From assembly GCF_000974985.2 (NCBI RefSeq), contig NZ_LAVA02000103.1:1-64000 (forward strand): a stretch of DNA of 64,000 bases. The letters are read 5' to 3'. Both the position numbers and the translations under genes were made by a program. Under the pieces are notes generated by a model. That model saw nothing but the letters and a program-made list of their open reading frames with translations. It had not been told where the DNA came from and made no database searches. The stretch is from Streptomyces mangrovisoli. GTDB lineage: Bacteria; Actinomycetota; Actinomycetes; Streptomycetales; Streptomycetaceae. Shown here one piece after another: positions 34,370 through 64,000 of this stretch. Numbering within the stretch: position 1 is the stretch's first letter; each line of letters begins with the position of its first letter.

Positions 34370-34474
34370 AGTTCTCCGGGGCCAGTAATTCAGGCCGTCC
34401 CGCCTGCTGGCAAGGGGTGGGGCCGGGTGTTTTTCCGTTGCGGGGCGGCGGGCACGCGGCGGAGGATCGACGCC

Positions 34475-35190
34475 ATGCCGACCTTCTGCGCGCCCGACGG
34501 GACCACGCTCGCCTACCGCGCCGCGGGAGAGGGCGCCCCGCTCGTCGTCCTGCCCGGCGGCCCCATGCGCGCCGCCCGCTACCTCGGCGACCTGGGAGGA
34601 CTCGCCGCGCACCGCCGGCTGATCCTGCTGGACCTGCGCGGTACCGGTGACTCGGCGGCCGCGGCGGACCCGGCGTCGTACCGCTGCGACCGGCTGGTCG
34701 GCGACGTCGAGGCGCTGCGCGCGCACCTCGGCCTGAACCGGATCGACCTGCTCGCCCACTCGGCGGGCGGCAGCCTCGCGATGCTCTACGCCGCCCGCCA
34801 CCCCACGCGCGTGGCGCGGGCCCGCGCGTCGACGGCCTCGGCACTCGGGGCGTTGCCCCCCAGGCCTCTCCGACGGGGCCCAGGCCCACCCACCCAAGGG
34901 GCGCGGGGAACTGCGCGACCAGCCCCCACCGGCCCGCAGCCGTACACACCGCACAGTGCCCCCGCGCGGCTCCGTGGTGCCCGTTCGCGCAGTTCCCCGC
35001 GCCCCTGAAGGGGCGCGCCCACCCCGCCCCAGGGGTGCGGCCGGAGAGCTCGCCGGCGGGCCCTGCCCGCGGTCGCGTCGCCGACGCGTCCCCGCGCGCC
35101 GACGTCGGCGCGCAGCCGGGCGCCGGTCACCATCCGTGGCCGGACGACCCCGCGTGGTTCACCGGGCGAGTGGGCCGGTTCCTCGGCGGG
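34475..35190 (+). pseudogene. Broken alpha/beta hydrolase (proline-iminopeptidase type) interrupted by a palindrome pair
   Basis: The gene starts normally at an ATG with GGAGG upstream. It encodes about 112 residues of a hydrolase: LVVLPGGPMRAARYLGDLGG, LLDLRGTGDSA and the nucleophile elbow LLAHSAGGSLAML with its Ser, up to HPTRVAR. From about 34811 the similarity stops and a region with two facing palindromic-element copies follows. From about 35092, in another frame, the end of the same kind of protein reappears: QPGAGHHPWPDDPAWFTGRV, with the catalytic-His segment. Roughly 130 residues of the cap and core are missing, so the product is almost surely inactive. Confidence 0.75.
34896..35006. 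repeat. Palindromic element pair inside the broken hydrolase
   Basis: AGGGGCGCGGGGAACTGCGC plus one paired base (34897-34917) faces its complement (34986-35006) 68 bases away. It is the same element as at 1354, 2804, 23939 and 44636, here located within remnants of a protein gene. Confidence 0.85.
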
Positions 35191-35253
35191 ACGGGTGCGC
35201 CGTCATGGGGCGCGGTCCCGGGTGACCGCCCGTCCGGGGGCGACTGCCGTGGC

Positions 35254-36867
35254 TCACCCGTCCGCCGAGGCCGCCACCTCCCGCGCCCACCGGTAGTCCG
35301 CCTTGCCGCTCGGGGAGCGCTGGATCGTGTCGGTGATGACGAGCTGGCGGGGGATCTTGTACCCGGCGAGACGGTCGCGGCAGTGGCTCTGGATGTCGGT
35401 CAGGGAGGGGTGCGCGGCCCCCCGGCGCACCTGCACGACCGCCGCGACATGGTGGCCCCACGTGGCGTCCGGCACCCCGGCCACCAGCGCGTCGTACACG
35501 TCGGGGTGCGACTTGAGCGCCTGCTCGACCTCCTCCGGGTACACCTTCTCGCCGCCGGTGTTGATGCACTGCGAGCCCCGGCCGAGCACGGTGACCACGC
35601 CGTCCTCGTCCACGGTGGCCATGTCGCCGAGCAGCACCCAGCGCACGCCGTCCCGCTCGAAGAAGGTCTCGGCGGTCTTCGCGGGGTCGTTGTAGTAGCC
35701 GAGCGGCACATGGCCGCACTGCGCGATCCGGCCCACCTCGCCGTCGGCCACCGGCAGCCGGCTCGCCGGATCGACCACCTGGGTGCGGGAGTTGACCCGG
35801 ATGCGGAAGCCCCGCTCGGGCCCGGAGTCCTCCGTGGCGGTGCCGTTGAAGCCCGACTCCGAGGAGCCGAAGTTGTTCAGCAGCATCGCGTTCGGGACGA
35901 GCGCGCCGAACTGCCGCCGTACCGTCTCCGACATGATCGCGCCGGAGGAGGAGACGCTGAACAGCGATGAGGTGTCCGTGCCCTTGAGCGGCCCTTCGAG
36001 CGCGTCGATGAGGGGGCGCAGCATCGCGTCGCCGACCAGTGAGACGCTGGTGACCTTCTCCTTCTCGATGGTGCGCAGCACCTCCTCCGGCACGAACTTG
36101 CGGTGCAGCACGACGCGTTGACCGAAGTCGAAGCCGATGAGCGCGGTGAGGGTGGAGGTGCCGTGCATCAGGGGCGGGGTCGGGAAGAAGGTGATCCCGT
36201 AGCCGCCGGCCGCCACCCGCTCGGCCAGCTCCTCGGGCGCCTTGACCGGTTCGCCGGTGGGCGCCCCGCCGCCGAGCCCGGAGAAGAACAGGTCCTCCTG
36301 GCGCCACATCACGCCCTTGGGCATCCCGGTGGTGCCGCCGGTGTAGATGATGAACTGGTCGTCCCCGGAGCGCGGGGCGAATCCCCGCTCGGGCGAGCCG
36401 CCCGCCTCCGCCTCGGCGAAGGGCACCGCGCCCGGGACCTCCGGGGCGGGCGGGCCGACCCGGACCAGGTGCCGCAGGCCGGGGACCTTCGGCAGCGCGG
36501 CGGCGACCCGGTCGGCGAACTCCGCGTCGAAGACCAGGGCCACCAGGTCCGCGTCCCGGTAGAGATAGACCAACTCCTCCTCGACGTAGCGGTAGTTGAC
36601 GTTGACCGGGACGATCCGCGCCTTGAGGCAGCCGTAGACCGTCTGGAGGTACTCGATCCCGTTGTAGAGATGCAGGCCAAGGTGCTCGCCGGGCCGGATA
36701 CCGCTGTCGAGCAGGTGATGGGCGACGCGGTTGGCGGCCGCGTCCAACTCCGCGTAGGTCAGCCGGCGCTCCGCGCCGGTGCCCGGGTGGTCGAGATACA
36801 CGAGCGCCTCGCGGTCGGGGACCACGTCGACGACCGACTCGAACAGGTCGGCAATGTTGTACTCCAC
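35254..36867 (-). CDS. Acyl-CoA synthetase (FadD-like)
   Basis: 537 residues, ANL superfamily, from the GTG at 36867 with a strong AGGAGGA site. The open frame extends further upstream but without such a site. Motifs: FIIYTGGTTGMPKGVMWRQE (P-loop), GSSESGFNGTA, YNDPAKTAETFFERDGVRWV, LGDMATVDEDGVVTVLGRGS and the catalytic lysine in QRSPSGKADYRWA. This form (TGGTTGMPKGV, MWRQED) is common among ligases of steroid, terpenoid and fatty-acid degradation. It is divergent from the enoyl-CoA hydratase operon, and both share a TCTGAC/GTCAGA operator, so it probably makes the CoA ester that the operon then degrades. Confidence 0.9.
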   Translation of the reverse strand: MEYNIADLFESVVDVVPDREALVYLDHPGTGAERRLTYAELDAAANRVAHHLLDSGIRPGEHLGLHLYNGIEYLQTVYGCLKARIVPVNVNYRYVEEELVYLYRDADLVALVFDAEFADRVAAALPKVPGLRHLVRVGPPAPEVPGAVPFAEAEAGGSPERGFAPRSGDDQFIIYTGGTTGMPKGVMWRQEDLFFSGLGGGAPTGEPVKAPEELAERVAAGGYGITFFPTPPLMHGTSTLTALIGFDFGQRVVLHRKFVPEEVLRTIEKEKVTSVSLVGDAMLRPLIDALEGPLKGTDTSSLFSVSSSGAIMSETVRRQFGALVPNAMLLNNFGSSESGFNGTATEDSGPERGFRIRVNSRTQVVDPASRLPVADGEVGRIAQCGHVPLGYYNDPAKTAETFFERDGVRWVLLGDMATVDEDGVVTVLGRGSQCINTGGEKVYPEEVEQALKSHPDVYDALVAGVPDATWGHHVAAVVQVRRGAAHPSLTDIQSHCRDRLAGYKIPRQLVITDTIQRSPSGKADYRWAREVAASADG

Positions 36868-36960
36868 CGCTCCTCCTGACCCCGGGCGTGCCTCGGTTGC
36901 CGGTCCGCCGGTCATCAGAGCAAAGGGCACCGCAACTGTGAAGGGCCCGCGGCCAACAAA

Positions 36961-36977
36961 TCTGACTGACTGTCAGA
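36961..36977. promoter_or_regulatory. TetR-type operator shared by ligase and hydratase operon
   Basis: TCTGACTGACTGTCAGA has 6-base arms around TGACT. Its arms, spacing and length are identical to those of the site at 10680-10696 (TCTGACGCAGCGTCAGA). It lies in the 174-base divergent promoter, 94 bases from the ligase start and 65 from the hydratase start, and could control both. Confidence 0.65.
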
Positions 36978-37041
36978 AAACCCTTGAAGTGCCGTCCCCG
37001 CTACTGCAACCTGTTCTCGTTCTTCGAGAGGGGAGACGCCC

Positions 37042-37842
37042 ATGGGCGGGACGGAACACCTCACCGTGCGACGCGAGGGCGCCACCCTGGTGCTCACGCT
37101 CAACAGGCCCGAAGCGAGGAACGCGCTCTCGCTCCCCATGCTCGTCGGCCTGTACGACGGCTGGCTGGAGGCCGACGCGGACGACACGGTCCGCTCGATC
37201 GTGCTCACCGGGGCGGGCGGCGCGTTCTGCGCGGGCATGGACCTCAAGGCCCTCGCCGGAGCGGGCATGGCGGGGGAGGAGTACCGCGACCGGCTCAAGG
37301 CCGACCCCGATCTGCACTGGAAGGCGATGCTGCGCCACCATCGGCCGCGCAAACCGGTGATCGCCGCCGTCGAGGGCCACTGCGTGGCCGGCGGCACCGA
37401 GATCCTCCAGGGCACCGACATCCGCGTCGCGGGCGAGTCCGCCACCTTCGGCCTCTTCGAGGTCCGGCGCGGCCTGTTCCCGATCGGCGGCTCCACCGTC
37501 CGCCTCCAGCGCCAGATCCCGCGCACCCACGCCCTGGAGATGCTGCTCACCGGGCGGCCCTACGCCGCCCGCGAGGCCGCGGCGATCGGCCTGGTCGGCC
37601 ACGTCGTACCCGACGGCACCGCCCTCACCAAGGCCCTGGAGATCGCCGAACTCGTCAACTCCTGCGGCCCGCTCGCCGTCGAGGCCGTCAAGGCGTCGGT
37701 GTACGAGACCGCGGAGCTGACCGAGACCGACGGCCTCGCCGCCGAACTCGCCCGCGGCTGGCCGGTCTTCGACACCGCCGACGCCAAGGAAGGCGCCCGC
37801 GCCTTCGCGGAGAAGCGGCCGCCCGTCTACAAGCGCGCCTGA
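37042..37842 (+). CDS. Enoyl-CoA hydratase/isomerase (crotonase family)
   Basis: 266 residues, one crotonase domain. The oxyanion-hole segments are GAGGAFCAGMDLKALAG and VEGHCVAGGTEI, and the trimer-forming C-terminal helices end in KEGARAFAEKRPPVYKRA. The enzyme hydrates or rearranges a CoA ester during beta-oxidation-like breakdown of side chains or rings. GAGAGGGGAGA precedes the ATG. It opens an operon with a DUF35 protein and two thiolase-like proteins, all nearly contiguous, controlled by the upstream operator. Confidence 0.9.
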   Translation: MGGTEHLTVRREGATLVLTLNRPEARNALSLPMLVGLYDGWLEADADDTVRSIVLTGAGGAFCAGMDLKALAGAGMAGEEYRDRLKADPDLHWKAMLRHHRPRKPVIAAVEGHCVAGGTEILQGTDIRVAGESATFGLFEVRRGLFPIGGSTVRLQRQIPRTHALEMLLTGRPYAAREAAAIGLVGHVVPDGTALTKALEIAELVNSCGPLAVEAVKASVYETAELTETDGLAAELARGWPVFDTADAKEGARAFAEKRPPVYKRA

Positions 37843-37862
37843 CCCGAAGGAGCAGACCGGCC

Positions 37863-38837
37863 ATGCCCGAAGTCCTCAAGGCCCCGCTCGTCGTCGAGTT
37901 CCCCTTCACCCGCTCCCTCGGCCCCGTCCAGAGCGCCTTCCTCACCGGCCTGCGCGAACGCGTCGTCCTCGGCGTCCGCACCGGCGACGGCCGCGTCCTC
38001 GTCCCGCCCATGGAGTACGACCCGGTGACCGCCGAGGACCTGCGTGACCTGGTCGAGGTCGCGCCCACCGGCACCGTGACCACCTGGGCCTGGAACCCCG
38101 CCCCCCGCCGCGGCCAGCCGCTCGCCACCCCCTTCGCCTGGGCCCTCGTCCGCCTCGACGGCGCCGACACCGCCCTGCTGCACGCCCTCGACGCGCCGGG
38201 ACCCGACGCCGTGCGCACCGGGATGCGCGTCCGCGTCCGCTGGGCGGCCGAGCGCACCGGCGCCATCACCGACATCGCCTGCTTCGAGCCGTACGCCGGG
38301 CCGGACCTCGACGGGCGCGAGGGCCCGGCGGCCGTCACGAGCGAACCACGTCCGCACGACGGTCAGTTCGCCGACCCGGTCACCGGCATCGTCGCCGAGG
38401 CCCGCCTCGACTACGTCTACTCGCCCGGCCGCGCCCAGTCCGCGCACATCCACGCCCTCGCCGACCGGCGCACGGTCGGCGAACGCTGCCCCGAGTGCCA
38501 CAAGGTCTACGTCCCGCCGCGCGGCGCCTGCCCCACCTGCGGCGTCGCCACCACCGAACAGGTCGAGGTCGGCCCGCGCGGCACCGTGACCACGTACTGC
38601 ATCGTCAACATCAAGGCCAAGAACCTCGACATCGAAGTCCCGTACGTCTACGCCCACATCGCCCTCGACGGCGCCGGACTCGCGCTGCACGGCCGGATCG
38701 GCGGCATCCCCTACGACCAGGTGCGCATGGGCCTGCGCGTGGAGCCGGTGTGGACCGACGACGCCCGCTTCCCCGACCACTACCGCCCCACCGGCGAACC
38801 CGACGCGGACTACGACACCTTCAAGGAGCTGCTGTGA
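37863..38837 (+). CDS. DUF35 OB-fold protein with zinc ribbon (two OB domains)
   Basis: 324 residues. Two OB-fold halves (about 1-150 and 165-324) flank one rubredoxin-like zinc ribbon, with Cys at 209, 212, 223 and 226 (ERCPECHKVYVPPRGACPTC). DUF35 proteins bind CoA esters and pair with thiolase-like aldolases; in steroid side-chain loss, ChsH2's DUF35 part activates the aldolase Ltp2. Here it lies between enoyl-CoA hydratase and a thiolase-like gene whose GTG start overlaps its stop (GTGA), which strongly suggests a complex with that protein. Only one of the two OB halves keeps a zinc site. Confidence 0.87.
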   Translation: MPEVLKAPLVVEFPFTRSLGPVQSAFLTGLRERVVLGVRTGDGRVLVPPMEYDPVTAEDLRDLVEVAPTGTVTTWAWNPAPRRGQPLATPFAWALVRLDGADTALLHALDAPGPDAVRTGMRVRVRWAAERTGAITDIACFEPYAGPDLDGREGPAAVTSEPRPHDGQFADPVTGIVAEARLDYVYSPGRAQSAHIHALADRRTVGERCPECHKVYVPPRGACPTCGVATTEQVEVGPRGTVTTYCIVNIKAKNLDIEVPYVYAHIALDGAGLALHGRIGGIPYDQVRMGLRVEPVWTDDARFPDHYRPTGEPDADYDTFKELL

Positions 38838-39883
38838 CGCGGGACATCGCCGTGGTGGCGTTCGCGCAGACCGACCACCGGCGCACCAGCGACGAGCTGT
38901 CCGAGGTCGAGATGCTCATGCCGGTGCTGCACGAGGTGCTGGAGCGCACCGGACTGCGCACCGCCGACATCGGCTTCACCTGCTCGGGCTCCTGCGACTA
39001 CCTCGCGGGCCGCGCCTTCTCCTTCACCCTCGCCCTCGACGGCGTCGGCGCCTGGCCGCCCATCTCCGAGTCCCACGTGGAGATGGACGGCGCCTGGGCG
39101 CTCTACGAGGCATGGACCAAACTGCTCACCGGCGACGCGGACACCGCCCTCGTCTACTCCTACGGCAAGTCCTCGCCCGGCCGGGTCCGCGACGTCCTCA
39201 CCCGGCAGCTCGACCCCTACTACCTGGCCCCGCTCTGGCCGGACTCCGTGAGCCTCGCCGCCCTCCAGGCACAGGCCCTGATCGACGCGGGCGAGGCCGA
39301 CGAGCCCGCCCTCGCCGCCGTCGCCGCCCGCAGCCGCGCGGACGCCGACGCCAACCCCCACGCCCAGCTGCGGGGCGCACGGCCCCAGGGCGACTACGTC
39401 GTACGGCCGCTGCGCACCGGCGACTGCCCGCCCGTCGGCGACGGCGCCGCCGCCGTGATCCTGGCCGCCGGCGACCGGGCCCGCGCACTGTGTGAACGCC
39501 CCGCCTGGATCCGCGGCATCGACCACCGCATCGAACCGCACGGCCTCGGCGTGCGCGACCTCACCGACGCGCCGTCCGCCCGGCTCGCCGCCGAACACGC
39601 CGGCGCCTACGAACGCCCCGTCGACACCGCGGAGTTGCACGCCCCCTTCAGCTCGCAGGAAATCGTCCTGCGCAAGGCGCTGCGGCTCGGCGACGACGTC
39701 CGCGTCAACCCCTCCGGCGGCGCGCTCGCCGCCCACCCCCTCATGGCCGCGGGGCTCCTCCGGATCGGCGAGGCCGCCGCGCGCATCCACCGCGGCGAGT
39801 CGGACCGCGCCCTCGCCCACGCCACCTCAGGACCGTGCCTGCAGCAGAACCTGGTCGCCGTACTCGAAGGGGATCCGCGATGA
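38834..39883 (+). CDS. Thiolase-like protein 1 (SCP2-thiolase/Ltp2 type)
   Basis: 349 residues of the thiolase superfamily lacking the classical triad layout. The N-terminus is VVAFAQTDHRRTSDELSEVE, with GFTCSGSCDYLAG, SYGKSSPGRVRD and the C-terminal NPSGGALAAHPLMAAGL and HATSGPCLQQNLVAVLEGD. This is the SCP2-thiolase type that works with DUF35 proteins as aldolases or thiolases on CoA esters. The GTG at 38834 overlaps the DUF35 stop; its own stop overlaps the start of the second thiolase gene (ATGA). The partner is therefore probably the DUF35 protein. Confidence 0.85.
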   Translation: MTRDIAVVAFAQTDHRRTSDELSEVEMLMPVLHEVLERTGLRTADIGFTCSGSCDYLAGRAFSFTLALDGVGAWPPISESHVEMDGAWALYEAWTKLLTGDADTALVYSYGKSSPGRVRDVLTRQLDPYYLAPLWPDSVSLAALQAQALIDAGEADEPALAAVAARSRADADANPHAQLRGARPQGDYVVRPLRTGDCPPVGDGAAAVILAAGDRARALCERPAWIRGIDHRIEPHGLGVRDLTDAPSARLAAEHAGAYERPVDTAELHAPFSSQEIVLRKALRLGDDVRVNPSGGALAAHPLMAAGLLRIGEAAARIHRGESDRALAHATSGPCLQQNLVAVLEGDPR

Positions 39884-41046
39884 GCAAGGAGCCCGTGGCC
39901 GTCGTCGGGATCGGCCAGACCAAGCACGTCGCGGCCCGCCGCGACGTGTCGATCGCCGGGCTCGTCCGCGAGGCGGCCCGACGCGCCCTCAACGACGCCG
40001 AGTTGACGTACGCCAACATCGACGCCGTCGTCATCGGCAAGGCCCCCGACTTCTTCGAGGGCGTCATGATGCCCGAGCTCTACCTCGCCGACGCCCTCGG
40101 CGCGGTCGGCAAGCCCATGCTGCGCGTGCACACCGCCGGAAGCGTCGGCGGCTCCACCGCCCTGGTCGCCGCGAACCTGGTCGCCGCCCGCGTGCACGGC
40201 ACCGTGCTCACCCTCGCCTTCGAGAAGCAGTCCGAGTCCAACGCCATGTGGGGCCTGTCCCTGCCGATCCCCTTCCAGCAGCCGCTGCTGGCCGGGGCGG
40301 GCGGCTTCTTCGCCCCGCACGTGCGCGCCTACATGCGGCGCAGCGGCGCCCCCGACACGGTCGGCTCCCTCGTCGCCTACAAGGACCGGCGCAACGCGCT
40401 GAAGAACCCCTACGCCCATCTGCACGAGCACGACATCACCCTGGAGAAGGTCCAGGCCTCCCCGATGCTCTGGGACCCCATCCGCTACTCGGAGACCTGC
40501 CCCTCCTCCGACGGCGCCTGCGCGATGGTGCTCACCGACCGGGCGGGCGCGGCCCGTTCGCCCCGGCCGCCCGCCTGGATGCTCGGCGGCGCGATGCGCA
40601 GCGAGCCCACCCTCTTCGCCGGCAAGGACTTCGTCTCGCCGCAGGCCGGCAAGGACTGCGCCGCCGACGTCTACCGGCAGGCCCGCATCGCCGACCCGCG
40701 CCGGGAGATCGACGCCGTCGAGATGTACGTGCCGTTCTCCTGGTACGAGCCCATGTGGCTGGAGAACCTCGGGTTCGCCGCGGAGGGCGAGGGCTGGAAG
40801 CTCACCGAGTCCGGCGTGACCGAACTCGACGGCGAACTGCCGGTGAACATGTCCGGTGGGGTCCTGTCCACCAACCCCATCGGCGCCTCCGGCATGATCC
40901 GGTTCGCGGAGGCCGCGCTCCAGGTGCGCGGCCAGGCCGGGGAACACCAGGTGCCGGACGCCCACCGGGTGCTCGGACACGCCTACGGCGGCGGATCGCA
41001 GTTCTTCTCCATGTGGCTGGTGGGGGACCGGCCGCCGCAGACCTGA
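39880..41046 (+). CDS. Thiolase-like protein 2 (SCP2-thiolase type)
   Basis: 388 residues, thiolase superfamily: AVVGIGQTKHVAARRDVSIA, KPMLRVHTAGSVGGSTALVA, YSETCPSSDGACAMVL, NMSGGVLSTNPIGASGMIRF and the C-terminal HAYGGGSQFFSMWLVG with the conserved His. With the preceding protein it resembles the paired thiolase genes of steroid and terpenoid degradation operons, which cleave or condense CoA esters. It is the last gene of the operon; 134 bases without a recognised terminator separate it from DUF397. Confidence 0.88.
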   Translation: MSKEPVAVVGIGQTKHVAARRDVSIAGLVREAARRALNDAELTYANIDAVVIGKAPDFFEGVMMPELYLADALGAVGKPMLRVHTAGSVGGSTALVAANLVAARVHGTVLTLAFEKQSESNAMWGLSLPIPFQQPLLAGAGGFFAPHVRAYMRRSGAPDTVGSLVAYKDRRNALKNPYAHLHEHDITLEKVQASPMLWDPIRYSETCPSSDGACAMVLTDRAGAARSPRPPAWMLGGAMRSEPTLFAGKDFVSPQAGKDCAADVYRQARIADPRREIDAVEMYVPFSWYEPMWLENLGFAAEGEGWKLTESGVTELDGELPVNMSGGVLSTNPIGASGMIRFAEAALQVRGQAGEHQVPDAHRVLGHAYGGGSQFFSMWLVGDRPPQT

Positions 41047-54138: not shown

Positions 54139-55242
54139 TCAGTACCGCAGGACCCCCGCGATGCCGTCCATGCCGTCCAGGGCGCCGTCCGGGACGAAGC
54201 GCACATCGGCGCCGGTCTCCAGGCACTGCTCGACGATCTCGTCCACGATGTCCTCGCGGGCGTCCATGTCGCCGGTCTCGGCCGGGATCAGATGGTCGCC
54301 CACGTCGTCGCGGACGGTCACGCGGTAGTTCTCCTCGACCGCGAGCAGGCGCACCCGGCCCTCCCGCGCGTTCTGCCACAGCTCGTCCACGCCCGCCGCG
54401 AACTTCTTGCGCCCGCGCGCCGATTCGAGCTCCCGGGCCACCGCGGCCGCGCTCTCGCGAGTGGCCTCGTCCAGGTACGGGCGTACGGCCTGCCAGACCG
54501 CCTCGGGGGTGCCGTGCGCGAGGCCGCCGTGCGGCATGTGCACCGCGCCCGCGCTCCGGGTCGCGCTGCCGGCCTCGTCCAGCAGGGACAGCGCGGCCTG
54601 CTCGCCGGTGATGTACAGCGGCCGCGGGTCGTCGCGCAGCATCGCGCCGATCGCGCCGTCGGCCTCGCGCAGGAAGTGCCGCGTGTCCTCGTCCCGGAAG
54701 GCGCTGGGCGTGTCGCCGATCCGCTCCTGGCGCTCGGGGTCGAAGTTGCGCGGCTCCCGGGCCATCGGGAAGCCGTCGCCGTGGTGCTCGGTGACCCGGT
54801 CGGCCCCGCCGTCCCACAGCGTGACCCGGTCGGGCGAGAGCGAGGCGACCCAGAACGGGCGCTCCGCGGCCTGGGCGGAGACGAGGTTGCGGGTGAGGAA
54901 GGTGTCGGAGAGCACGACACGCTCGGGCACCGTGCGGCCGAGCGACCACACCTGGTGCTCGCCGGGCGCGGCGAAGATCACCAGTCCGTCCTCGGCGTGC
55001 GCGAGGTCGATCTCGGCGAGGGCCCGGTCGAGCTGTTCCTCGACATCGGTCCTGCGGTCCCGGGTCACCGCCGGATCGGACTCCAGCTGCTTCTTGGCGT
55101 CGGCCAGCACATTGCGGAGCCGAACGGCGTCCTGGGCGCTGCTGCGCTCGCGGCGGTGCGTGGGCGTCAGCACGGACACCGCGGGATAGGGGCGCGGGCG
55201 GCGCAGCTCGGCAAGGGTCGCGGGACTGAGTGCGTGCTCCAT
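54139..55242 (-). CDS. baeRF3-domain protein (bacterial release-factor-like, Vms1/eRF1 group)
   Basis: 367 residues. The N-terminal part (VSVLTPTHRRERSSAQDAVR) and middle (GLVIFAAPGEHQVWSLGRTV, FWVASLSPDRVTLWDGG) and C-terminal region (VDEIVEQCLETGADVRFVPD) match the bacterial archaeo-eukaryotic release-factor-like proteins. The eRF1 GGQ loop is not apparent. Relatives are thought to act on stalled ribosomes or peptidyl-tRNA, but in bacteria the role is mostly predicted. It is divergent from the acyl-AMP ligase across 543 bases and probably belongs to housekeeping, not to the polyketide cluster. Confidence 0.78.
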   Translation of the reverse strand: MEHALSPATLAELRRPRPYPAVSVLTPTHRRERSSAQDAVRLRNVLADAKKQLESDPAVTRDRRTDVEEQLDRALAEIDLAHAEDGLVIFAAPGEHQVWSLGRTVPERVVLSDTFLTRNLVSAQAAERPFWVASLSPDRVTLWDGGADRVTEHHGDGFPMAREPRNFDPERQERIGDTPSAFRDEDTRHFLREADGAIGAMLRDDPRPLYITGEQAALSLLDEAGSATRSAGAVHMPHGGLAHGTPEAVWQAVRPYLDEATRESAAAVARELESARGRKKFAAGVDELWQNAREGRVRLLAVEENYRVTVRDDVGDHLIPAETGDMDAREDIVDEIVEQCLETGADVRFVPDGALDGMDGIAGVLRY

Positions 55243-55785
55243 AGGACAACGGTAGGGCCGAATCGGTGATCGGGCATTTGGGATCAAAGGCGACAGAGGG
55301 GCGGTCATGGCGCTCTGACCGGAATTCGCCGTCGCGGGTTGTGGCCGGGAGCTCGCACCGGGCCGCCGGGTGGCCGTACCGGCCGGGAGGGACCGTTCCG
55401 ATTCGGCCGTCGGCTCGGCGTTCCCGCTCGTGGCGCCGCACGGCCGCGGTGCGCGGCAGAGCGTATCGAGGAGCCGTGACGGACATCGGCGGAAGGGTGC
55501 CGGATCGGCCAACTCTGTTGGACACGCACCGTTTACACGCCTTCGGCATGTCGGCCTGTGGTGGCTTGCTATGGTGCTACTCACCGGTAGCAATCGAACG
55601 GCGACCGGTAGCAACGGAACGGGGAGCGCGGGGAGTCGGGGGACGCGGAGACGCAACTCCTCGCGTGGGGGGTCGAGAAGGACGGCCGGCAAGGGTGCCG
55701 GTTCGGCCACGGCTTCTGCGCGTCGTGCACGCGGCCCTCGAACAAGAGTTCATCCCCCACCTATCCAGACAGGTGAGACTCGCCC
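55243..55785. promoter_or_regulatory. Long divergent intergenic region with GTAGCA repeats
   Basis: 543 bases without a coding frame I trust. TGCTAC (55575) and GTAGCA (55587) form an inverted repeat with a 6-base spacer. ACCGGTAGCAA recurs at 55583 and 55604, exactly 21 bases (two helical turns) apart, and another TTGCTA lies at 55567. This array, about 180 bases before the FAAL start, is the best candidate for control of the lipid/polyketide genes. Confidence 0.5.
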
Positions 55786-57534
55786 ATGGCTCGACATCTG
55801 GTCGACTTACTGACCGCGCACGCCACCGACCAGCCGGACCGCACCGCCTACCGCCATCTCGTCACGGGGGACTGCGACGGCGAGATCCAGGACATCTCCT
55901 ACGCGCGCCTGCTGCGCCGCACCCGCGCCGTCGCCGCCTGGCTCCAGGAGCATGGCCTCGCCGGCTCCCGCGCGATGCTCCTGTACCCGCCCGGCCTGGA
56001 GTTCGTCTCCGGCTTCCTCGGCTGCCTCGCCGCGGGCGTCGTCGCCGTACCGGGCGTGCCCCCGCAGGGCCGCGCCCAGAACCATCGCGCGCTGCACCGC
56101 ATGAAGCGCCTGATCGCCGACGCGGACGCCAAGGTCGTCCTCGGCGGCCGCGAGGTGATCGCCGCGCTCGGCGCCCTCGCCGAGCATCTGCCGGAACTCG
56201 ACCACATAGCCAGGATCGCCACCGAGGACATACCCGACGAGGCCGCCGACGCCTGGCGCGAGCCCGGCATCGCGGCCGACGCCGTCGCCTTCCTCCAGTA
56301 CACCTCGGGTTCGACCTCCGCCCCGCGCGGCGTGATGGTCACCCACGCCAACCTGCTGGACAACGAGCGGGTCATCTCCGAGCGGATGGGCCACACCCCC
56401 GAGACCGTCGCCGCGTACGGCCACGAACTCATGGTCAGCTGGCTGCCCGTCTACCACGACATGGGCCTCATGGGCCCGGTCCTCAACAGCCTCTACCTGG
56501 GCGCCACCGGCACCCTCTTCTCCCCGCTGCACTTCCTCCAGCGACCGCAGCGCTGGCTGTCCGCGATCAGCCGCTACCGCCCGCACACCAGCGGCGGCCC
56601 CAACTTCGCCTACGAGCTGTGCCTCAAGCACGCCACGCCCGAGAGCGTCGCCGCCCTCGACCTCAGCTCCTGGCGGGTCGCCTTCAACGGCGCCGAACCC
56701 GTGCGCGCCGCCACCCTGCGCCGCTTCGCCGAGACCTACGCCCCCGCCGGCTTCCGCCGCGAGAGCCTCTACCCCTGCTACGGCCTCGCCGAGGCGACCC
56801 TGATGGTCACCGGCGGCACACCCGGCACCGCGCCCACGCTCGCCGCCACCCAGCCCGACCACGCCGGTTCCCCGGACGCCGCCGCCGTCGGCTGCGGCCG
56901 GCCCGCTCCCGGACTCACCGTCGTGATCGCCGACCCGGAGCGGCGCGAGGAACTGCCCGACGGCGAGACCGGCGAGATCTGGGTCGCGGGTGCGAGCGTC
57001 GCGAAGGGCTACTGGCGCAACGCCCTCGCCACCCGCGAGACCTTCCGCGCGCAACTCCCCGGCCACGAGGGGCGATTCCTGCGCACCGGCGACCTCGGCC
57101 ACCTGCGCGACGGCGAACTCTTCGTCACCGGACGTCTGAAGGACCTCATCGTCGTCGACGGCCGCAACCACTACCCGCAGGACCTGGAGCTGACGGCCGA
57201 ACTCGCCCACCCGGCGCTGCGGCCCGGCTGCACCGCCGCGTTCTCCGTCGACGGGGGCGGCACGGGCGGTGACGGCGGTGACGGCGGGATCGACGGCGAA
57301 CAGCCCGTCCTCATAGCCGAGTTGACGCCGGATGTGGCGGGCGAGGCAGCGGCGATCACCGAGCTGATCCGCAGCGCCGTAGGAGAGGCGCACGGACTGC
57401 CGCTGCACGACGTCGTGCTGGTCCAGCCGGGCACCATCCCGAAGACCTCCAGCGGCAAGATCCAGCGGCACGCCTCCCGGGCGGCCTACCTCACCGGCGG
57501 CCTCGCGGCGGTCGGCGTACCCGTCGCGGGCTGA
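55786..57534 (+). CDS. Fatty acyl-AMP ligase (FAAL, FadD32-like)
   Basis: 582 residues. The N-terminal hallmark is SRAMLLYPPGLEFVSGFLGC followed by LAAGVVAVPGVPP, as in FAALs. P-loop: YTSGSTSAPRGVMVTH from Tyr172. Also WLPVYHDMGLMGPVLNSLYL, YPCYGLAEATLMVTGG, GDLGHLRDGELFVTGRLKDL and the catalytic lysine in PKTSSGKIQR (Lys558). FAALs turn fatty acids into acyl-adenylates and pass them to an ACP instead of to CoA, which primes a PKS or NRPS. It lies directly before a PKS whose protein begins with an ACP. The ATG has AGGTGAG upstream. Acyl length not readable. Confidence 0.92.
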   Translation: MARHLVDLLTAHATDQPDRTAYRHLVTGDCDGEIQDISYARLLRRTRAVAAWLQEHGLAGSRAMLLYPPGLEFVSGFLGCLAAGVVAVPGVPPQGRAQNHRALHRMKRLIADADAKVVLGGREVIAALGALAEHLPELDHIARIATEDIPDEAADAWREPGIAADAVAFLQYTSGSTSAPRGVMVTHANLLDNERVISERMGHTPETVAAYGHELMVSWLPVYHDMGLMGPVLNSLYLGATGTLFSPLHFLQRPQRWLSAISRYRPHTSGGPNFAYELCLKHATPESVAALDLSSWRVAFNGAEPVRAATLRRFAETYAPAGFRRESLYPCYGLAEATLMVTGGTPGTAPTLAATQPDHAGSPDAAAVGCGRPAPGLTVVIADPERREELPDGETGEIWVAGASVAKGYWRNALATRETFRAQLPGHEGRFLRTGDLGHLRDGELFVTGRLKDLIVVDGRNHYPQDLELTAELAHPALRPGCTAAFSVDGGGTGGDGGDGGIDGEQPVLIAELTPDVAGEAAAITELIRSAVGEAHGLPLHDVVLVQPGTIPKTSSGKIQRHASRAAYLTGGLAAVGVPVAG

Positions 57535-57555
57535 CGGCGGCGCGGCGCGTCCGGC

Positions 57556-57639
57556 GGCGAAGCCGGTCGGGGGTGCCGAGCGGCCCGGGGGGCGAAGCCG
57601 GTCGGGTGCTAAGCGGGCCGGGGGGCGAAGCCGGTCGGG
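57556..57639. repeat. GGCGAAGCCGGTCGGG repeats between FAAL and PKS genes
   Basis: Three exact copies of GGCGAAGCCGGTCGGG start at 57556, 57591 and 57624 with similar spacers, a degenerate tandem repeat of about 34 bases. The rest of the 460-base gap is GC-rich with CCCCGGCACCGCGCC repeats near 57800 and no clear promoter. Confidence 0.8.
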
Positions 57640-57994
57640 GGAGCGAAGTCCAGCGGTCCCCACGGCCGCGCCGTGCCGCGTCGGCCGCGGCCGCCCGAGC
57701 CCCTTCGGGTACGGAGCCCGGAGCGCCCGGCGCCACGTGCCCACCCCTCGCGGCGGCACCTGCCCCGGCCGTGCGCTCCGCGCCGCCTCGCGGCGGCGAC
57801 CCCGCGCCCGGCACCGCGCCACCCCGGCACCGCGCCGCCCCGGCACCGATCAGCCCCACCGCCCCCGCCGCCCCGAAGCCGTAGAGCCAAGGCCCCGCCG
57901 ATCGGCGGACCCCAGGACCGCCGAAGGTCCGGAGGCGTCCGCCCGGCGGCGTGACGGACCCTTTCCGAGACCGAGTTCACGAGGACACCTTCCG

Positions 57995-60900
57995 ATGCCT
58001 GCGCACGAGATCCCGCACCAGACTTCCGAGACTCCCGTCATGACGGAGGACGGCGTGCGCGACTGGCTGACGTCGGCCGTCGCCGCGGCCGCCGGACTCG
58101 ACCCGGCGTCCGTCGCCCCTGACCGTCCGCTCGCCGAACTCGGCCTCGGGTCGCGCCAGTTGGTCACCCTGGTGGCCGAGCTGGCCGAACGGGTCGACCG
58201 CCCCCTGGAACCCGCCCTGGTCTTCAACCACCCGACCGTCGCCGCCATCGCCAGCGCCGTCCTGGCGGAGGGGGAGCCCGGCCGGTCCGCGCGGGTCCCG
58301 GCCGGCAACGCGCCCTCCGGGGCGGCGGGTTCGGGCGGACGCCCCGACGACGCCGTGGCGATCGTCTCGATGGCCTGCCGCTTTCCCGGCGGCGCGGACG
58401 ACCCGGAGGCGCTGTGGCGGCTGCTCGACGCGGGCACCGACGCCGTCTCCGACGTGCCCGCCGGCCGGTGGGACACCCAGGGCCTGCACGACCCCGACCC
58501 GTCCGCCGCGGGTACCGCCTACACCCTGCGCGGCGGCTATCTCGACGCCATCGACCGCTTCGACGCCGCCTTCTTCGGGATCTCCCCACGCGAGGCCGAC
58601 GCCATGGACCCGCAGCAACGGCTGCTGCTCCAGACGGCGTGGGAGACGATCGAGCGCGCCGGGATCGTCCCCGGGACGCTGAACGGCAGCTCCACGGGCG
58701 TCTACGTCGGCCTCTACGACAGCGGGTACCTGGCCGGCGCCCCGCTCGCCGGGCTCGACGGGCACACCGGCACCGGGTCCGCCACCAGCGTGGCGTCCGG
58801 GCGCATCGCCTACACCCTCGGCCTGGAGGGTCCCGCCGTCACCGTCGACACCGCGTGCTCCTCGTCCCTGGTCGCGCTGCACCTGGCGGCGCGCGCGCTC
58901 GCGGCGGGGGAGTGCGACCTCGCGCTCGCGGGCGGCGCCAGCCTGCTCGTGACCCCGCGCGGGCACGTCGAGTTCAGCAGGCTGCGGGCGCTGTCCCCGA
59001 CCGGCACGTGCGGCCCGTTCTCGGCGGGCGCCGACGGCGTGGTGTGGGCCGAGGGGTGCGGTCTGGTGCTCCTCAAACGGCTCGCCGACGCCCGCCGCGA
59101 CGGCGACCGGGTGCTCGCCGTGGTCAAGGGCTCGGCGATCAACCAGGACGGCCGCAGCCAGGGGCTCAGCGCCCCGAGCGGGCCCGCGCAGGAACGCGTG
59201 GTGCGGGCGGCGCTCGACGCCGCGGGGCTGCGCCCCGGCGACATCGACCATGTCGAGGCGCACGGCACGGGCACCCCGCTCGGGGACCCCATCGAGGGCG
59301 GCGCGCTCGCCGCGGTCTTCGGTCCCGGACGGCCGGCCGGACGGCCGCTCGGCGTCGGCTCGTTGAAGTCGAACATCGGGCACACCCAGGCCGCCGCGGG
59401 CATCGGCGGGGTCATCAAGACCGTGCTGGCACTGGAACACGAGCGGGTCCCGGCGTCCCTGCACGCCGACACGCCGACCCCGCGGGTCGACTGGGCGGGC
59501 GGCGGACTGCGTCTGCTGGCCGCCGCGCAGGCGTGGCCGTACGACCAGGAGCGCGTGCGCCGGGCCGGGATCAGCGCGTTCGGGATCAGCGGCACGAACG
59601 CGCACGTGATCCTGGAGGAGGCACCGAGGCCGGCCCCGGTGCCCGCGGTGTCCGACGCGGCTGCCGTCCCGTCGACCGAACTGTCGGCTCCGGTGGCCGA
59701 GCTGTTCGCCCCGGGGACCGCTCCGGCCTCCGAGCCGTCCGCCCCGGGGACTGTTCCGGTCTCCGAGGCGGCCCACCCGGCTGCCGCCCCGGCGGCCGAG
59801 TCCTCCGCCCCGGTGGCCGAGTCCTCCGCCCCGGTGGCCGCCCCCGCCCTCTTCCCGCTGTCCGCCCGCTCCCTGCCTGCCCTGCGGCAGCAGGCCGCAC
59901 GGCTGCGCGACGAGCTCCGCGCGCACCCCGGCACCCCGCTGCCCGCCGTCGCGGCCACGCTCGCCCACCACCGCACTCACTTCGAGCACCGCGCCGTCGT
60001 ACGCGCCGGCGACCGGGACGAACTCCTCGCCGCACTCGACGCGTTGGCGACGGGCGACGACGGCGACGGGCCCGAGCACCTCACCGGGCCGCTGCGGTCG
60101 GCGCCCGTCGGCAAGCTGGCCTTCGTCTTCCCCGGCCAGGGCAGCCAGTGGACGGGCATGGCGCGCGACCTGCTCGCGCACGACGCCGTGTTCGCCGACG
60201 AACTCGACCGCTGCGACGCCGCGTTGCGCCCCTTCACCGGCTGGTCCGCCGCCGCCGTGCTGCGCGGCGACGCGGGCGCACCCTCGCTGGACCGGGTCGA
60301 CGTCGTCCAGCCGGTGCTGTTCGCCGTGATGGTGTCGCTGGCCGCCGTCTGGCGGGCGCGGGGCGTGCGGCCGGACGCGGTGATCGGGCACAGCCAGGGC
60401 GAGGTCGCCGCGGCCTGCGTCGCCGGGGCGCTCAGCCTGAGCGACGCCGCCGCCGTGGTCGCCCTGCGCAGCCAGGCCCTGACCGAGCTGTCCGGCACCG
60501 GCGCCATGGCGGTCGTCGGCCTGCCGCACACCGAGGTCGAGCCCCGTCTCGCCGCGCTCGACGGCCGGGTCTGCGTCGCCGCCGTCAACAGCGGCCGCTC
60601 CACCGTCGTCGCCGGAGACGTCGCACCGATGGAGTCGCTGATCGACGAACTCGCGCGCGAGCAGGTCTTCGTGCGCCGCCTCGACGTCGACTACGCCTCC
60701 CACAGCGCCCAGGTCGAGCCGGTCCGCGCGGCCGTACTCGACGAGCTGGACGGCGTGCTCGCCACGCCCACCGCCGTGGCCTGGTACTCCACCGTCACCG
60801 GCGCGCCGGTCACCGAGGAGCTGGAGGCCGGGTACTGGTACGCCAATCTGCGCGAGCCGGTCCGCTTCGGCCCCACCGTCGAACGCATGACGGCCGACGG

Positions 60901-63900
60901 CTACCGCTGGTTCGTCGAGCTGAGCCCGCACCCGTCGCTGCTCACCGCCCTGCGCACGGTCGACGAGGACGTCGTCGCCGTGGGATCGCTCCACCGGGAC
61001 GCGGACGGCCCCGCCTGCCTCGACCGGGCCGCCGCCGAACTCCACGTCCACGGTCGGTCGTTGGACTGGCGTCGGCTCGTCGCCCGCACCGCGCCCGCGC
61101 AACTGCCCACCTACGCCTGGGAGACGCCACGGCACTGGATCGAACCCCAGCGCACGACCGCGCACCCCGGGCTGTTCGACCGGGCCGCGCACCCGCTGCT
61201 CGGCGTCCAGTTGCGCTCGGCGGACGACTCCCGCTGGACCTTCCGCAACGAGTGGTCCCCGGCCACCGCCGACTGGCTGCCCGACCACACCGTGCACGGC
61301 CGGACCGTCGTCTCCGGCACCACCCTCATGGAGCTGTGCCGGGCCGCCCTCGCCGTCGCCCGACCCGACGAACCGGCCGACCTCACCGGCCTGTTGATCC
61401 TCGCGCCCCTCGTACTGCCCGCCACGGGCACGGTCGAGGTGTCGGTGGACGTGGTCACGGAGGCGGCTGCACCCGAGATCACCGTGCACAGCCGCCCGCG
61501 CGGCCAGGCGGCGGACGGCTGGACGCTGCACGCCACCGCGTCGGCGGCTGCACCCGCCGCCCCGCGCACCCAGCCGCCCCCGGAGTGGCCGCGGACCGCC
61601 GAACAGGCCTGGACCGCCGACGCCTACCCACGGCTGGCCGCGCTCGGGCTCACCTACGGACCCGCCTTCCAGGGCGTCCGCGAGGCCGTACGGACCGGTG
61701 ACGGCACCCTGTTGGCGCGGCTCTCCCTGCCGACCGCGGCGCGCGACCTCGCCGACCCCTACCCCCTGCACCCGGCGCTGCTGGACGCGGCGCTGCACGC
61801 GGCCGCCGCGTTCGACGACGGCGGCCGGGTGCTGCTCCCGGTCGCCGCGGCCCGCTGCGTGCTGCCGCCCGGCGGCGCCACCGACCTCGTCGCGGCCGTC
61901 CGCCGCGACACGGGTGCGGACGGCGACCTCACCCTCGACGTCACGCTGTGGGACACCGACGGCATCCCGGCCGGACACCTCGAAGGCGTACGGCTGCGCG
62001 CCGCGGACCCCGCCGACCTCAGCGCCGCCTCGGGCAGCGCACGCCATCTGTACGAGGTGGCCTGGACGGCCGTGACCGCCACCGCGCCACCGCCCGCCGA
62101 GTGGGCCGTCGTCGGCGACGTGCCGGACGGGCTCGTGCCCGGCCTGCACGCGGCGGGCGTCCGCACCGTCGCGGCGGACGGCGCCGGGACCGTCGTACGG
62201 TTCTGGCCCGACCCGGCGTGCCCGCCCGGGCGGGACGCGCCCGAGGAACTGCCCGCCGCCGTCCGCGCGTTCGCGGCCACCGCCCTCGCCGAGGTGCAGG
62301 CGCTCGTCGCGCTGCCCGCCGGCCGGGCGCCCGCCCGGACCGTGTGGGTGACGCGCGGCGCGGTCGGCGCGGCCGACGGCGACGCCGTACCTGGGCTCGC
62401 GCAGTCCGTCCTGTGGGGGCTGGCCCGCAGCGCCCGCGCCGAACACCCCGATCTCGGGCTGACGTTGCTCGACCTCGATGGGGCGGACCCGGACCCGGCC
62501 TCCCTCGTGGCCGCCCTCGGCCTGCCGGACGAGTCCGAGATCGCCGTCCGCGAGGGAACACCGCTCGCACCCCGCCTGATCCGGGCCCGCACCCCGCAGC
62601 CCCCCGCGTCCCCCGACAACGACAGCCGGGCCTCCGCGACCCGGGCCCGCCACCCTGTCGTCCCCACCGACGGCACGGTCCTCGTCACCGGCGGACTCGG
62701 CGCCGTAGGTCTGCACATCGCGCGTCTGCTGGCCGAACACGGCGCCCGCCGACTGCTGTTGACCTCGCGGCAGGGCGGGGACGACCCCCGCGCCGCCGAC
62801 GCGATCGCCGAACTCGCCGCGCTGGGCGCCGAGGCCGAGGTGGCGGCCTGCGACGTCGCGGACGCGGGCGCGCTCGCCGCACTCCTCGACGGCGTGCCGC
62901 TGCGCGGCGTCGTGCACTGCGCGGGCGTCCTCGACGACGGCGTGGTCACCGAACTGACCCCGCAGCGCCTGGAGACGGTGCTGCGGCCCAAGGCCGACGG
63001 CGCCGCGCATCTGCACCGGCTGACCGCCGGCCGGCCGCTGGAGCTGTTCCTGCTGGTCTCCTCCGCCGCCGGTGTCGCGGGCAGCCCCGGCCAGGGCAAC
63101 TACGCCGCCGCCAACGTCTTCCTCGACCAACTCGCCCATCACCGGCGCGCCATGGGTCTGCCCGCGGTGTCCGTCTCCTTCGGCGCCTGGGCCGGCGAGG
63201 GTCTCGCCGCCGCGCACGCCGACCTCGCGCGCATGGCCCGGCTCGGCCACCGCGCCCTCACCCCCGAACAGGGCCGCGACCTCGTCGACCTGTCCCTGCG
63301 CCGCGCCCGCCCCCACCTGGTGGCCTGGTCGCTCGACCTGCCCCGGCTGCGCGAGTCGGCCACGGGACCGCTGTGGAGCGCGCTGCTGCCCGCGGCCCGC
63401 ACCGGCGCCGAGGGCGGCCGCGGCCTGGCCGACCGGCTGGCGGCGCTGCCCGGACCCGAGCGCGCCGAACGCGTGCTGACCCTGGTCCGCGAGGAGATCT
63501 CGCGCGCCCTCGGCCTGCGCTCCGCCGCGTCCGTCCGCCCCGACCAGCCGCTGCGCGACCTCGGCATGGACTCCGTGACCGCGGTCGAGCTGCGCAACCG
63601 CATCGGCCGCCGCGTCGGCGTGAAACTCCCGGCCACCCTGCTCTTCGACCACCCCACCGCCGACCGGGTCACCGCCCATCTGCTCGCCGGACCGCTCGCG
63701 ACGGCCGACCGCGCGACGCCCGCCGCCGCGCCCGCCCCCCTCACCCAGGTCCCCTCCGACGAGCCGATCGCCGTCGTCGCCACGGCGTGCCGGCTGCCCG
63801 GCGGCGTCGACGGCCCCGAGGCGCTGTGGCGCCTGGTCGCCGAGGGCCGCGACGCGATCGGCCCCTTCCCCGCCGGACGCTGGGACGTCGAGTCGCTCTA

Positions 63901-64000
63901 CGACCCCGACCCCGACGCCCCCGGCAAGTCCTACGCCCGCGAGGGCGGCTTCCTCGACGACATCGAGTCCTTCGACGCGGGCTTCTTCGGCATCACCCCG
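57995..64000 (+). CDS. Modular type I polyketide synthase, ACP-KS-AT-DH-KR-ACP-KS... (3'-partial)
   Basis: At least 2002 residues, running off the window. ACP1 has Ser53 in LGLGSRQLV. KS1 (about 121-540) has Cys288 in DTACSSS, His423 in EAHGTGT and His463 in NIGHTQ, so it is a full condensing domain. The AT has Ser800 in GHSQGE and YASH at 900-903, with RVDVVQ, pointing to methylmalonyl-CoA. The DH has His1098 in DHTVHG and Asp1264 in LLDAALH, but the loop is HxxxGxxxxS with Ser1107 in place of the usual Pro. KR has Lys1666, Ser1690 and Tyr1703 with Leu-Asp-Asp at 1646-1648, so active and B-type. There is no ER. ACP2 has Ser1860, and a second KS begins near 1920. The upstream FAAL probably loads ACP1 with a fatty acid. 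GAGGA precedes the ATG. Confidence 0.92.
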   Translation, partial: MPAHEIPHQTSETPVMTEDGVRDWLTSAVAAAAGLDPASVAPDRPLAELGLGSRQLVTLVAELAERVDRPLEPALVFNHPTVAAIASAVLAEGEPGRSARVPAGNAPSGAAGSGGRPDDAVAIVSMACRFPGGADDPEALWRLLDAGTDAVSDVPAGRWDTQGLHDPDPSAAGTAYTLRGGYLDAIDRFDAAFFGISPREADAMDPQQRLLLQTAWETIERAGIVPGTLNGSSTGVYVGLYDSGYLAGAPLAGLDGHTGTGSATSVASGRIAYTLGLEGPAVTVDTACSSSLVALHLAARALAAGECDLALAGGASLLVTPRGHVEFSRLRALSPTGTCGPFSAGADGVVWAEGCGLVLLKRLADARRDGDRVLAVVKGSAINQDGRSQGLSAPSGPAQERVVRAALDAAGLRPGDIDHVEAHGTGTPLGDPIEGGALAAVFGPGRPAGRPLGVGSLKSNIGHTQAAAGIGGVIKTVLALEHERVPASLHADTPTPRVDWAGGGLRLLAAAQAWPYDQERVRRAGISAFGISGTNAHVILEEAPRPAPVPAVSDAAAVPSTELSAPVAELFAPGTAPASEPSAPGTVPVSEAAHPAAAPAAESSAPVAESSAPVAAPALFPLSARSLPALRQQAARLRDELRAHPGTPLPAVAATLAHHRTHFEHRAVVRAGDRDELLAALDALATGDDGDGPEHLTGPLRSAPVGKLAFVFPGQGSQWTGMARDLLAHDAVFADELDRCDAALRPFTGWSAAAVLRGDAGAPSLDRVDVVQPVLFAVMVSLAAVWRARGVRPDAVIGHSQGEVAAACVAGALSLSDAAAVVALRSQALTELSGTGAMAVVGLPHTEVEPRLAALDGRVCVAAVNSGRSTVVAGDVAPMESLIDELAREQVFVRRLDVDYASHSAQVEPVRAAVLDELDGVLATPTAVAWYSTVTGAPVTEELEAGYWYANLREPVRFGPTVERMTADGYRWFVELSPHPSLLTALRTVDEDVVAVGSLHRDADGPACLDRAAAELHVHGRSLDWRRLVARTAPAQLPTYAWETPRHWIEPQRTTAHPGLFDRAAHPLLGVQLRSADDSRWTFRNEWSPATADWLPDHTVHGRTVVSGTTLMELCRAALAVARPDEPADLTGLLILAPLVLPATGTVEVSVDVVTEAAAPEITVHSRPRGQAADGWTLHATASAAAPAAPRTQPPPEWPRTAEQAWTADAYPRLAALGLTYGPAFQGVREAVRTGDGTLLARLSLPTAARDLADPYPLHPALLDAALHAAAAFDDGGRVLLPVAAARCVLPPGGATDLVAAVRRDTGADGDLTLDVTLWDTDGIPAGHLEGVRLRAADPADLSAASGSARHLYEVAWTAVTATAPPPAEWAVVGDVPDGLVPGLHAAGVRTVAADGAGTVVRFWPDPACPPGRDAPEELPAAVRAFAATALAEVQALVALPAGRAPARTVWVTRGAVGAADGDAVPGLAQSVLWGLARSARAEHPDLGLTLLDLDGADPDPASLVAALGLPDESEIAVREGTPLAPRLIRARTPQPPASPDNDSRASATRARHPVVPTDGTVLVTGGLGAVGLHIARLLAEHGARRLLLTSRQGGDDPRAADAIAELAALGAEAEVAACDVADAGALAALLDGVPLRGVVHCAGVLDDGVVTELTPQRLETVLRPKADGAAHLHRLTAGRPLELFLLVSSAAGVAGSPGQGNYAAANVFLDQLAHHRRAMGLPAVSVSFGAWAGEGLAAAHADLARMARLGHRALTPEQGRDLVDLSLRRARPHLVAWSLDLPRLRESATGPLWSALLPAARTGAEGGRGLADRLAALPGPERAERVLTLVREEISRALGLRSAASVRPDQPLRDLGMDSVTAVELRNRIGRRVGVKLPATLLFDHPTADRVTAHLLAGPLATADRATPAAAPAPLTQVPSDEPIAVVATACRLPGGVDGPEALWRLVAEGRDAIGPFPAGRWDVESLYDPDPDAPGKSYAREGGFLDDIESFDAGFFGITP

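Follow-up and report, generated by a model that had tools for sequence, protein, structure and literature searches.

A foxicin-type polyketide gene cluster probably starts at a contig edge of Streptomyces mangrovisoli: a second look at its first and last enzymes

The subject of this study is the right-hand end of a 64,000-nucleotide stretch of Streptomyces mangrovisoli DNA (RefSeq assembly GCF_000974985.2, NZ_LAVA02000103.1, positions 1 to 64,000, hereafter the window), where a gene for a stand-alone fatty acyl-AMP ligase (FAAL) is followed on the same strand by a gene for a modular polyketide synthase (PKS). The genome comprises 9.17 Mb in 199 contigs; the window is C6:1-64000, and contig C6 has 72,975 bases, 8,975 of them past the window. 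A search with the hydrolase of about 380 amino acids (aa) of a relative gave a match in the same genome on contig C5 (1848-2978, 85% identity). The genes of both contigs are listed below with their counterparts in the foxicin (fox) cluster of Streptomyces diastatochromogenes Tü6028. Domain families were assigned with Pfam and NCBIfam (main domains at E 1e-20 to 1e-115) and domain limits were placed by hand: acyl carrier protein (ACP), ketosynthase (KS), acyltransferase (AT), dehydratase (DH), ketoreductase (KR) and condensation (C) domains.

55786-57534, plus strand: FAAL, FoxBI homolog, 582 aa; PF00501 and PF23024
57737-72007 of the contig (window part 57737-64000), plus strand: PKS, FoxBII homolog, 4756 aa from the longest start
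58049-58291, plus strand: ACP1, putative loading carrier; PF00550, one of two such stretches in the window part; motif LGLGS
58343-59626, plus strand: KS1, intact Cys; motif TACSSS
60104-61066, plus strand: AT1; motifs GHSQG, RVDVVQ and YASH
61184-62026, plus strand: DH1; variant HxxxGxxxxS (HTVHGRTVVS), not HxxxGxxxxP
62654-63226, plus strand: KR1; motif LDD
63464-63691, plus strand: ACP2; PF00550
63755-65032 of the contig (the window ends at 64000), plus strand: KS2
65414-66286 of the contig, plus strand: AT2; GHSLG, PFASH
66494-67336 of the contig, plus strand: DH2; canonical motif
68024-68566 of the contig, plus strand: KR2
68849-69082 of the contig, plus strand: ACP3
69134-70411 of the contig, plus strand: C domain, aa 3832-4216; HHAVSD (HHxxxD)
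70514-72004 of the contig, plus strand: FkbH, aa 4414-4732; TIGR01686, 388 bits against a cut-off of 147; DGDET (DxDxT)
about 72110 to 72975 of the contig, cut at the contig end, plus strand: 5' part of the FoxBIII homolog, with a carrier domain at 72401-72619
C5:1-1851: remainder of the FoxBIII homolog, matching FoxBIII residues 332-945 at 84%
C5:1243-1848: X domain, C-terminal in FoxBIII, 202 aa
C5:1848-2978: FoxEI match, alpha/beta hydrolase, 85% to Tü6028
C5:3043-3816: FoxEII match, alpha/beta hydrolase, 82% to Tü6028

The PKS thus has the full order ACP-KS-AT-DH-KR-ACP-KS-AT-DH-KR-ACP-C-FkbH. A preliminary description made from the window had reported a FAAL before a PKS that opens with ACP-KS and lacks a loading AT or KSQ, and had proposed to follow the gene to the right; the opening is as it said, and past the window the protein continues with KS2-AT2-DH2-KR2-ACP3-C-FkbH to 72007. 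GTG at 57737 is merely the longest reading of its start, and ATG at 57995 or 58040 seems likelier, since the first ~85 residues appear by eye to be of low complexity. For module 1, the methylmalonyl specificity of AT1 and the B type of KR1 given earlier agree with motifs that we take to be of these kinds (GHSQG/RVDVVQ/YASH and LDD, respectively), while its DH had to be refined to the HxxxGxxxxS variant.

Greule et al. (2017) described the fox cluster of Tü6028 (KT440882, 41 open reading frames (ORFs)), in which foxBI (583 aa) is given as an 'A domain' (adenylation), foxBII (4807 aa) has a domain order ending in C-FkbH, foxBIII (945 aa) is given as 'PCP-TE' (peptidyl carrier protein, thioesterase), and foxEI and foxEII have 378 and 259 aa; single-crossover interruption of foxBII abolished the foxicins (PMC5318452). 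We compared Tü6028 directly (NZ_MLCE01000003.1, our locus L082), where 18 ORFs, including foxBI, foxBIII, foxEI and foxEII, equal the published length, and the remaining ones were uncalled or had another start (e.g. 441 for 422 aa). The five genes foxBI-BII-BIII-EI-EII are present in the window strain in fox order, on C6 55786-72975 and then C5:1-3816. The core genes, their order, strand and domain order, and the HxxxGxxxxS of DH1 are shared with Tü6028; the difference is that in this assembly a contig break divides the core. Identity to Tü6028 is 76% for the FAAL, 85% for KS1, 81% for AT1, 73% for DH1 and 79% for KR1 in the window, and 84% for KS2, 77% for AT2, 59% for DH2, 69% for C and 82% for FkbH on the rest of the contig. 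Over 15 window-derived domains the range is 59-85%, leaving out the values for ACP4, thioester reductase (TR), X and hydrolase, which are from genome G067 against Tü6028. Eleven of the 15 lie at 74-85%, per domain, where the published range is 73-96%, per gene (PMC5318452). Because the match to foxBI-BII-BIII-EI-EII is gene for gene, the arrangement is a known one, and the explanation that, as a whole, probably accounts best for the window-edge genes is that they are the start of a foxicin-type biosynthetic cluster, a new copy of a known arrangement. A known cluster of this kind, named earlier as a ground for refutation, is thus at hand in foxicin as far as the arrangement goes, though not for the product.

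The best structural matches of the window ligase were 7r7e/f/g (named 'Polyketide synthase') and 3kxw, at E of about 1e-149; the former we take to be FAALs, and the latter is a Legionella FAAL. Chains named FadD32, FadD23 and FadD28 follow further down the list. Compared by eye in an alignment with a fatty acyl-CoA ligase from the same window (35257-36930), the ligase has a longer segment after YGLAEAT, at the FAAL insertion site. FoxBI of Tü6028 also carries PF00501 and the FAAL-type second domain PF23024, and it has the appearance of a FAAL instead of an adenylation domain for amino acids.

Conservation around the start was followed in fox-type loci, defined by a FAAL of at least 68% identity: 49 rows, 48 of them distinct by FAAL sequence, Tü6028 included. 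Since 42 of the 49 came from the best 80 of 497 relatives, and the other 38 of those 80 loci were left out, fox-type counts are lower bounds. In all 48 rows that reach past the FAAL (the 49th, L102, ends at a contig edge), ACP1 lies 97-518 bases after it, and the ACP1 serine is kept in 47 of 47 distinct loci. A phylogeny of KS1, also proposed earlier, put it on a branch of KS domains that directly follow a FAAL-ACP. This branch takes in 19 of the 21 rows of that kind, drawn from Streptomyces, Nocardia and Rhodococcoides, and has support of 86/94, short of the level that the tool marks with a star; both stray rows are one genome, CB02959, and stand among extension KS. The tree had 47 rows, 43 of them different (CB02959 and Nocardia wallacei were doubled, L101 being G175 and L103 N. 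wallacei), with 10 of the 49 fox-type rows used and sequences no longer than 350 aa removed; two changes on it are required to explain the 'first' label, and a long-branch warning applies to the second G067 locus, G196 and G180. Thus the FAAL's identity, the ACP1 spacing and serine, and the KS branch all argue for the earlier proposal that the FAAL primes ACP1, while the long fatty acyl starter in it stays unproven. The FAAL pocket position after LG varies among A/V/L/T/G over the 48 loci, and was not used as a clue to chain length. A second FAAL lies in the same genome on contig C181 (about 3.7-5.1 kb, minus strand, L002-L004), 37-52% identical in pieces, and with the ACP and KS that follow near the contig edge it appears to be another FAAL-started PKS.

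The extension modules are similarly uniform in the fox-type loci, where n is 46 or 47 since no PKS domains were obtained for L102 and the L099 stretch stops short of KS2. AT1 has xYASH in 47 of 47 (46 DYASH, one GYASH) and AT2 has xFASH in 46 of 46. The serine of DH1 is found in 45 of 46 distinct loci, the exception being L097 with the canonical proline (L092 was left out of this count, as its best match is to the DH2 query), and the module-2 DH has proline in all 46. Module 1 of L092 (S. rishiriensis) and L097 (Streptomyces sp. yr375) has a divergent DH (37-38%) and KR (52-57%), compared with at least 62% for DH1 and at least 68% for KR1 in the other loci, likely by a domain swap; a motif scan of these two modules for an enoylreductase motif was negative. 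In foxicin A the first double bond is beta,gamma, a position that the authors tie to the HxxxGxxxxS of DH1 (PMC5318452), and on this point the reduced chain earlier expected from module 1 is not supported.

At the other end of the assembly line, the HHxxxD of C and the DxDxT of FkbH are present in the aligned rows, and a carrier lies downstream in the window strain. FoxBIII of Tü6028 consists of PP-binding and PF07993, with no thioesterase family at E 0.001; the homolog of G067 clears the TIGR01746 cut-off, and the closest solved relative of the window strain's copy is the MxaA reductase. The GxTGFxG and YxxxK of an NAD(P)-binding reductase are present, Pfam having been run on the Tü6028 and G067 copies rather than on the split one of the window strain. 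FoxBIII is thus predicted to carry a thioester reductase instead of a thioesterase, and release would be reductive. For the X domain that follows, neither a Pfam family above the cut-off nor a credible match to a solved structure was found; in an alignment of 10 copies, identity to the first one is 59-82%. The nucleophile elbow of FoxEI-type proteins carries a Cys in all 16 distinct loci scored, which come from 15 genomes (18 rows with two loci doubled; matches of at least 38%), and the FoxEII elbow reads GHSMG in the three copies compared. A Cys at this position is known from acyl-transferring enzymes such as polyhydroxyalkanoate synthase, which hints that FoxEI may transfer an acyl group rather than simply hydrolyse an ester. 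A fusion with a GMC oxidase was considered as a possible origin of the pair of X domain and FoxEI-type hydrolase; in a search over 61 genomes with this hydrolase, one match lay inside an open frame of 1,144 aa.

The set of C-FkbH, ACP-TR-X and FoxEI-type hydrolase is also found behind other PKSs. In Streptomyces sp. CB02959 (G175) the FAAL is fused to two modules; in G196 and G180 at least four KS and no FAAL were found in the stretch fetched; at a second G067 locus the KS domains are without an AT match; and in Nocardia wallacei a FAAL and three modules form one frame of 6,216 aa. One-module lines of FAAL-ACP-KS-AT-DH-KR, C, FkbH, ACP and TR are found in N. beijingensis (L106) and N. thailandica (L108) up to the edge of the available stretch, which shows neither X nor the FoxEI-type hydrolase, and in L108 there is no ACP match before C. 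Thus the cassette is found behind FAAL-started, FAAL-free and AT-poor PKSs of Streptomyces and Nocardia.

Based on these data the following route may be proposed. The FAAL would form an acyl-AMP and load ACP1 without CoA, the substrate being probably short and perhaps branched, as in foxicin A. Module 1 would add and reduce a methylmalonate, with the variant DH1 leaving a beta,gamma double bond, and module 2 would add a second methylmalonate to give an alpha,beta double bond, both outcomes and the specificity of AT2 being taken from foxicin A. By analogy with VioA and BurF (see below), FkbH may then load glycerate from 1,3-bisphosphoglycerate onto the FoxBIII carrier, where the C domain would esterify it with the finished chain. 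The thioester reductase would free the chain as O-acyl-glyceraldehyde or -glycerol, and the Cys-type FoxEI and Ser-type FoxEII might transfer or trim the acyl group. In its strongest form, which we hold to be unlikely, the cassette is a portable releasing device: the chain is parked on glycerate, freed as O-acyl-glyceraldehyde, and passed by the Cys enzyme to the final acceptor, an aminoquinone in Tü6028. Glycerate as a removable handle would explain a foxicin A without glycerate, and if true this would amount to a novel mode of polyketide unloading.

Several points weigh against the proposed cluster and route. The simplest reading is that C6 continues into C5, with the break within a linker of the FoxBIII homolog, but the join is inferred, and so is the adjacency of foxBII, foxBIII and foxEI here, since the contig break falls inside foxBIII; C5 has no KS or other PKS domain match across 30,547 bases. 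Four of the 15 domains lie below 73% to Tü6028 (DH1 72.8, FkbH N-part 71.5, C 69 and DH2 58.6%), and the AT2 motifs GHSLG and PFASH are ambiguous. No match to foxA or foxGI, accessory genes of the published cluster, was found on C6 or C5, so the final product here may differ from foxicin. As foxicin A has no glyceryl unit and no reduced terminus (PMC5318452), the last three steps, from glycerate loading onward, have no support from the sole known product, and the predicted route leaves the amide-linked quinone foxicin A unexplained. Either the transfer of the acyl group to an amine removes the glyceryl, or C-FkbH-TR has another role.

We also considered that the core makes a free O-acyl-glycerol or O-acyl-glyceraldehyde, with foxicin A as an exceptional, decorated product of a single strain. 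C-FkbH, ACP-TR-X and FoxEI co-occur even behind quite different PKSs, which speaks for this, and foxA and foxGI were matched at Tü6028 only, among the loci as fetched; but that search covered only the fetched flanks (upstream over about 10 kb, with shorter stretches for 9 of the 49 fox-type rows, and downstream in few genomes). We know of no free product of this kind, and regard this possibility as rather less likely than its denial. As no match was seen in the other fox-type loci as fetched, foxA and foxGI are probably no core feature, and the limits published for the cluster may have been drawn too far out. The Tü6028 genes foxGII and foxGIII were considered as precursor genes; by eye, their ORFs resemble those of a sugar isomerase and a class II aldolase, with a DeoR-like regulator next to them.

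More doubtful is the lipid-primed, methyl-branched chain, for which the FAAL would load a long or medium fatty acid. Most of the entries covered from the table of a 2025 FAAL review are C6 or longer (PMC11837247), and 24% of positions are different between FoxBI and the FAAL of the window. Against this, 'lipid-initiated' is put in doubt by the one known product of the gene set, foxicin A, whose C10 acyl tail its authors derive from a C4 starter, isobutyryl-CoA, and two methylmalonates (PMC5318452), and starters of C4 (chondrochloren) and C5 (catenulisporolides) are included in that table, both as hypotheses (PMC11837247), so that a C4-accepting FAAL would be unusual but not unheard of. Least of all can we follow the published scheme, in which FoxBI is an amino-acid adenylating enzyme for FoxBIII, isobutyryl-CoA supplies the acyl group of ACP1 and release is by a thioesterase: it is the annotation and proposal of the authors, who found no A-domain specificity in silico (PMC5318452), and is very improbable given PF23024 in FoxBI, the FAAL structures matched first by the window ligase, a FoxBIII with a reductase and no thioesterase match, and the constant closeness of ACP1 to the FAAL.

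Two other ideas were dropped. An arseno-polyketide (bisenarsan) was abandoned because the downstream genes of relatives, a reductase and hydrolases, led to foxicin; no arsenic-gene search was made. Tetronate formation involves FkbH together with a ketosynthase III-type enzyme, and was rejected as both modules have a KR; a ketosynthase III-type enzyme was not searched for.

Returning to the foxicin-type cluster with a FAAL start and reductive release, the comparison of many copies suggests that the types of enzyme published for the first and last steps are misassigned. Such a re-annotation of FoxBI, FoxBIII or FoxEI was not found in the literature mentioning foxicin, as far as it was covered; the parts available of the 2017 fox paper (PMC5318452) lack the term 'fatty acyl-AMP ligase', and those of the FAAL review (PMC11837247) do not mention foxicin. 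A false 'unknown cluster' is hereby removed, two enzyme assignments are proposed for correction in a recurrent pathway, and a testable proposal is offered for chain start and release; the interest of the locus lies in this re-annotation and an unexplained end cassette, rather than in an unknown lipid product.

That the pathway recurs was seen with the C-FkbH tail as query in 199 genomes, the strain's own and 198 others of the genus. A match at 64-80% was found in 18 of the 198, full-length at 72-78% in 10 and in pieces at 64-80% in G001, G024, G040, G049, G095, G097, G106 and G148, and the earlier remark that a FAAL with a multimodular Streptomyces PKS is rare is thus not borne out. A second group at 52-61% comprises G014, G081, G175, G180, G196 and a second copy in G067; FkbH-only matches at 33-39% are common and were excluded. 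The fox cluster was reported in 2.6% of strains and in none outside Streptomyces (PMC5318452), from a sampling that differs from ours. More recently, a foxicin-type cluster was seen to be switched on in Streptomyces lavendulae facing yeast (2026, PMC13170338), and two Nocardia papers of 2026 give 4% similarity to foxicin. Elsewhere in the window, a baeRF-family protein (ribosome hibernation factor-like, under the NCBIfam cut-off) is encoded divergently, directly upstream of the FAAL (54139-55710, minus strand), and a run of genes at 31497-41046 for acyl-CoA metabolism, with acyl-CoA ligases, an enoyl-CoA hydratase and a thiolase-like protein, are likely catabolic and without link to the PKS.

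Among known systems, the start resembles FadD32/Pks13 of mycolic acid synthesis, where a stand-alone FAAL charges the N-terminal ACP of a PKS, as proposed here; unlike the present line, that system has one condensing module, very long chains and a thioesterase end. The myxobacterial vioprolide synthetase VioA shares a FAAL start, an ester-forming C domain and an FkbH that loads glycerate on a carrier, the C domain esterifying this glycerate (PMC8949500), and differs in listed C16/C17 acids (PMC11837247). In VioA the FAAL belongs to module 1 and C-FkbH to module 2, which leaves fewer steps between start and ester. In vioprolide a peptide part follows. Malleicyprol BurF, by its description, resembles the line in a fatty acid-derived chain, two extensions, an ester-forming C domain, an FkbH-derived NEX domain, a carrier and release by a terminal reductase; unlike here, NEX alone is kept, the carrier receives an alpha-hydroxy acid via BurJ/BurH, and extension is with malonyl-CoA (PMC12304814). 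The beta-keto chain of BurF allows butenolide closure, which is not expected in the window line as both of its modules have KR and DH.

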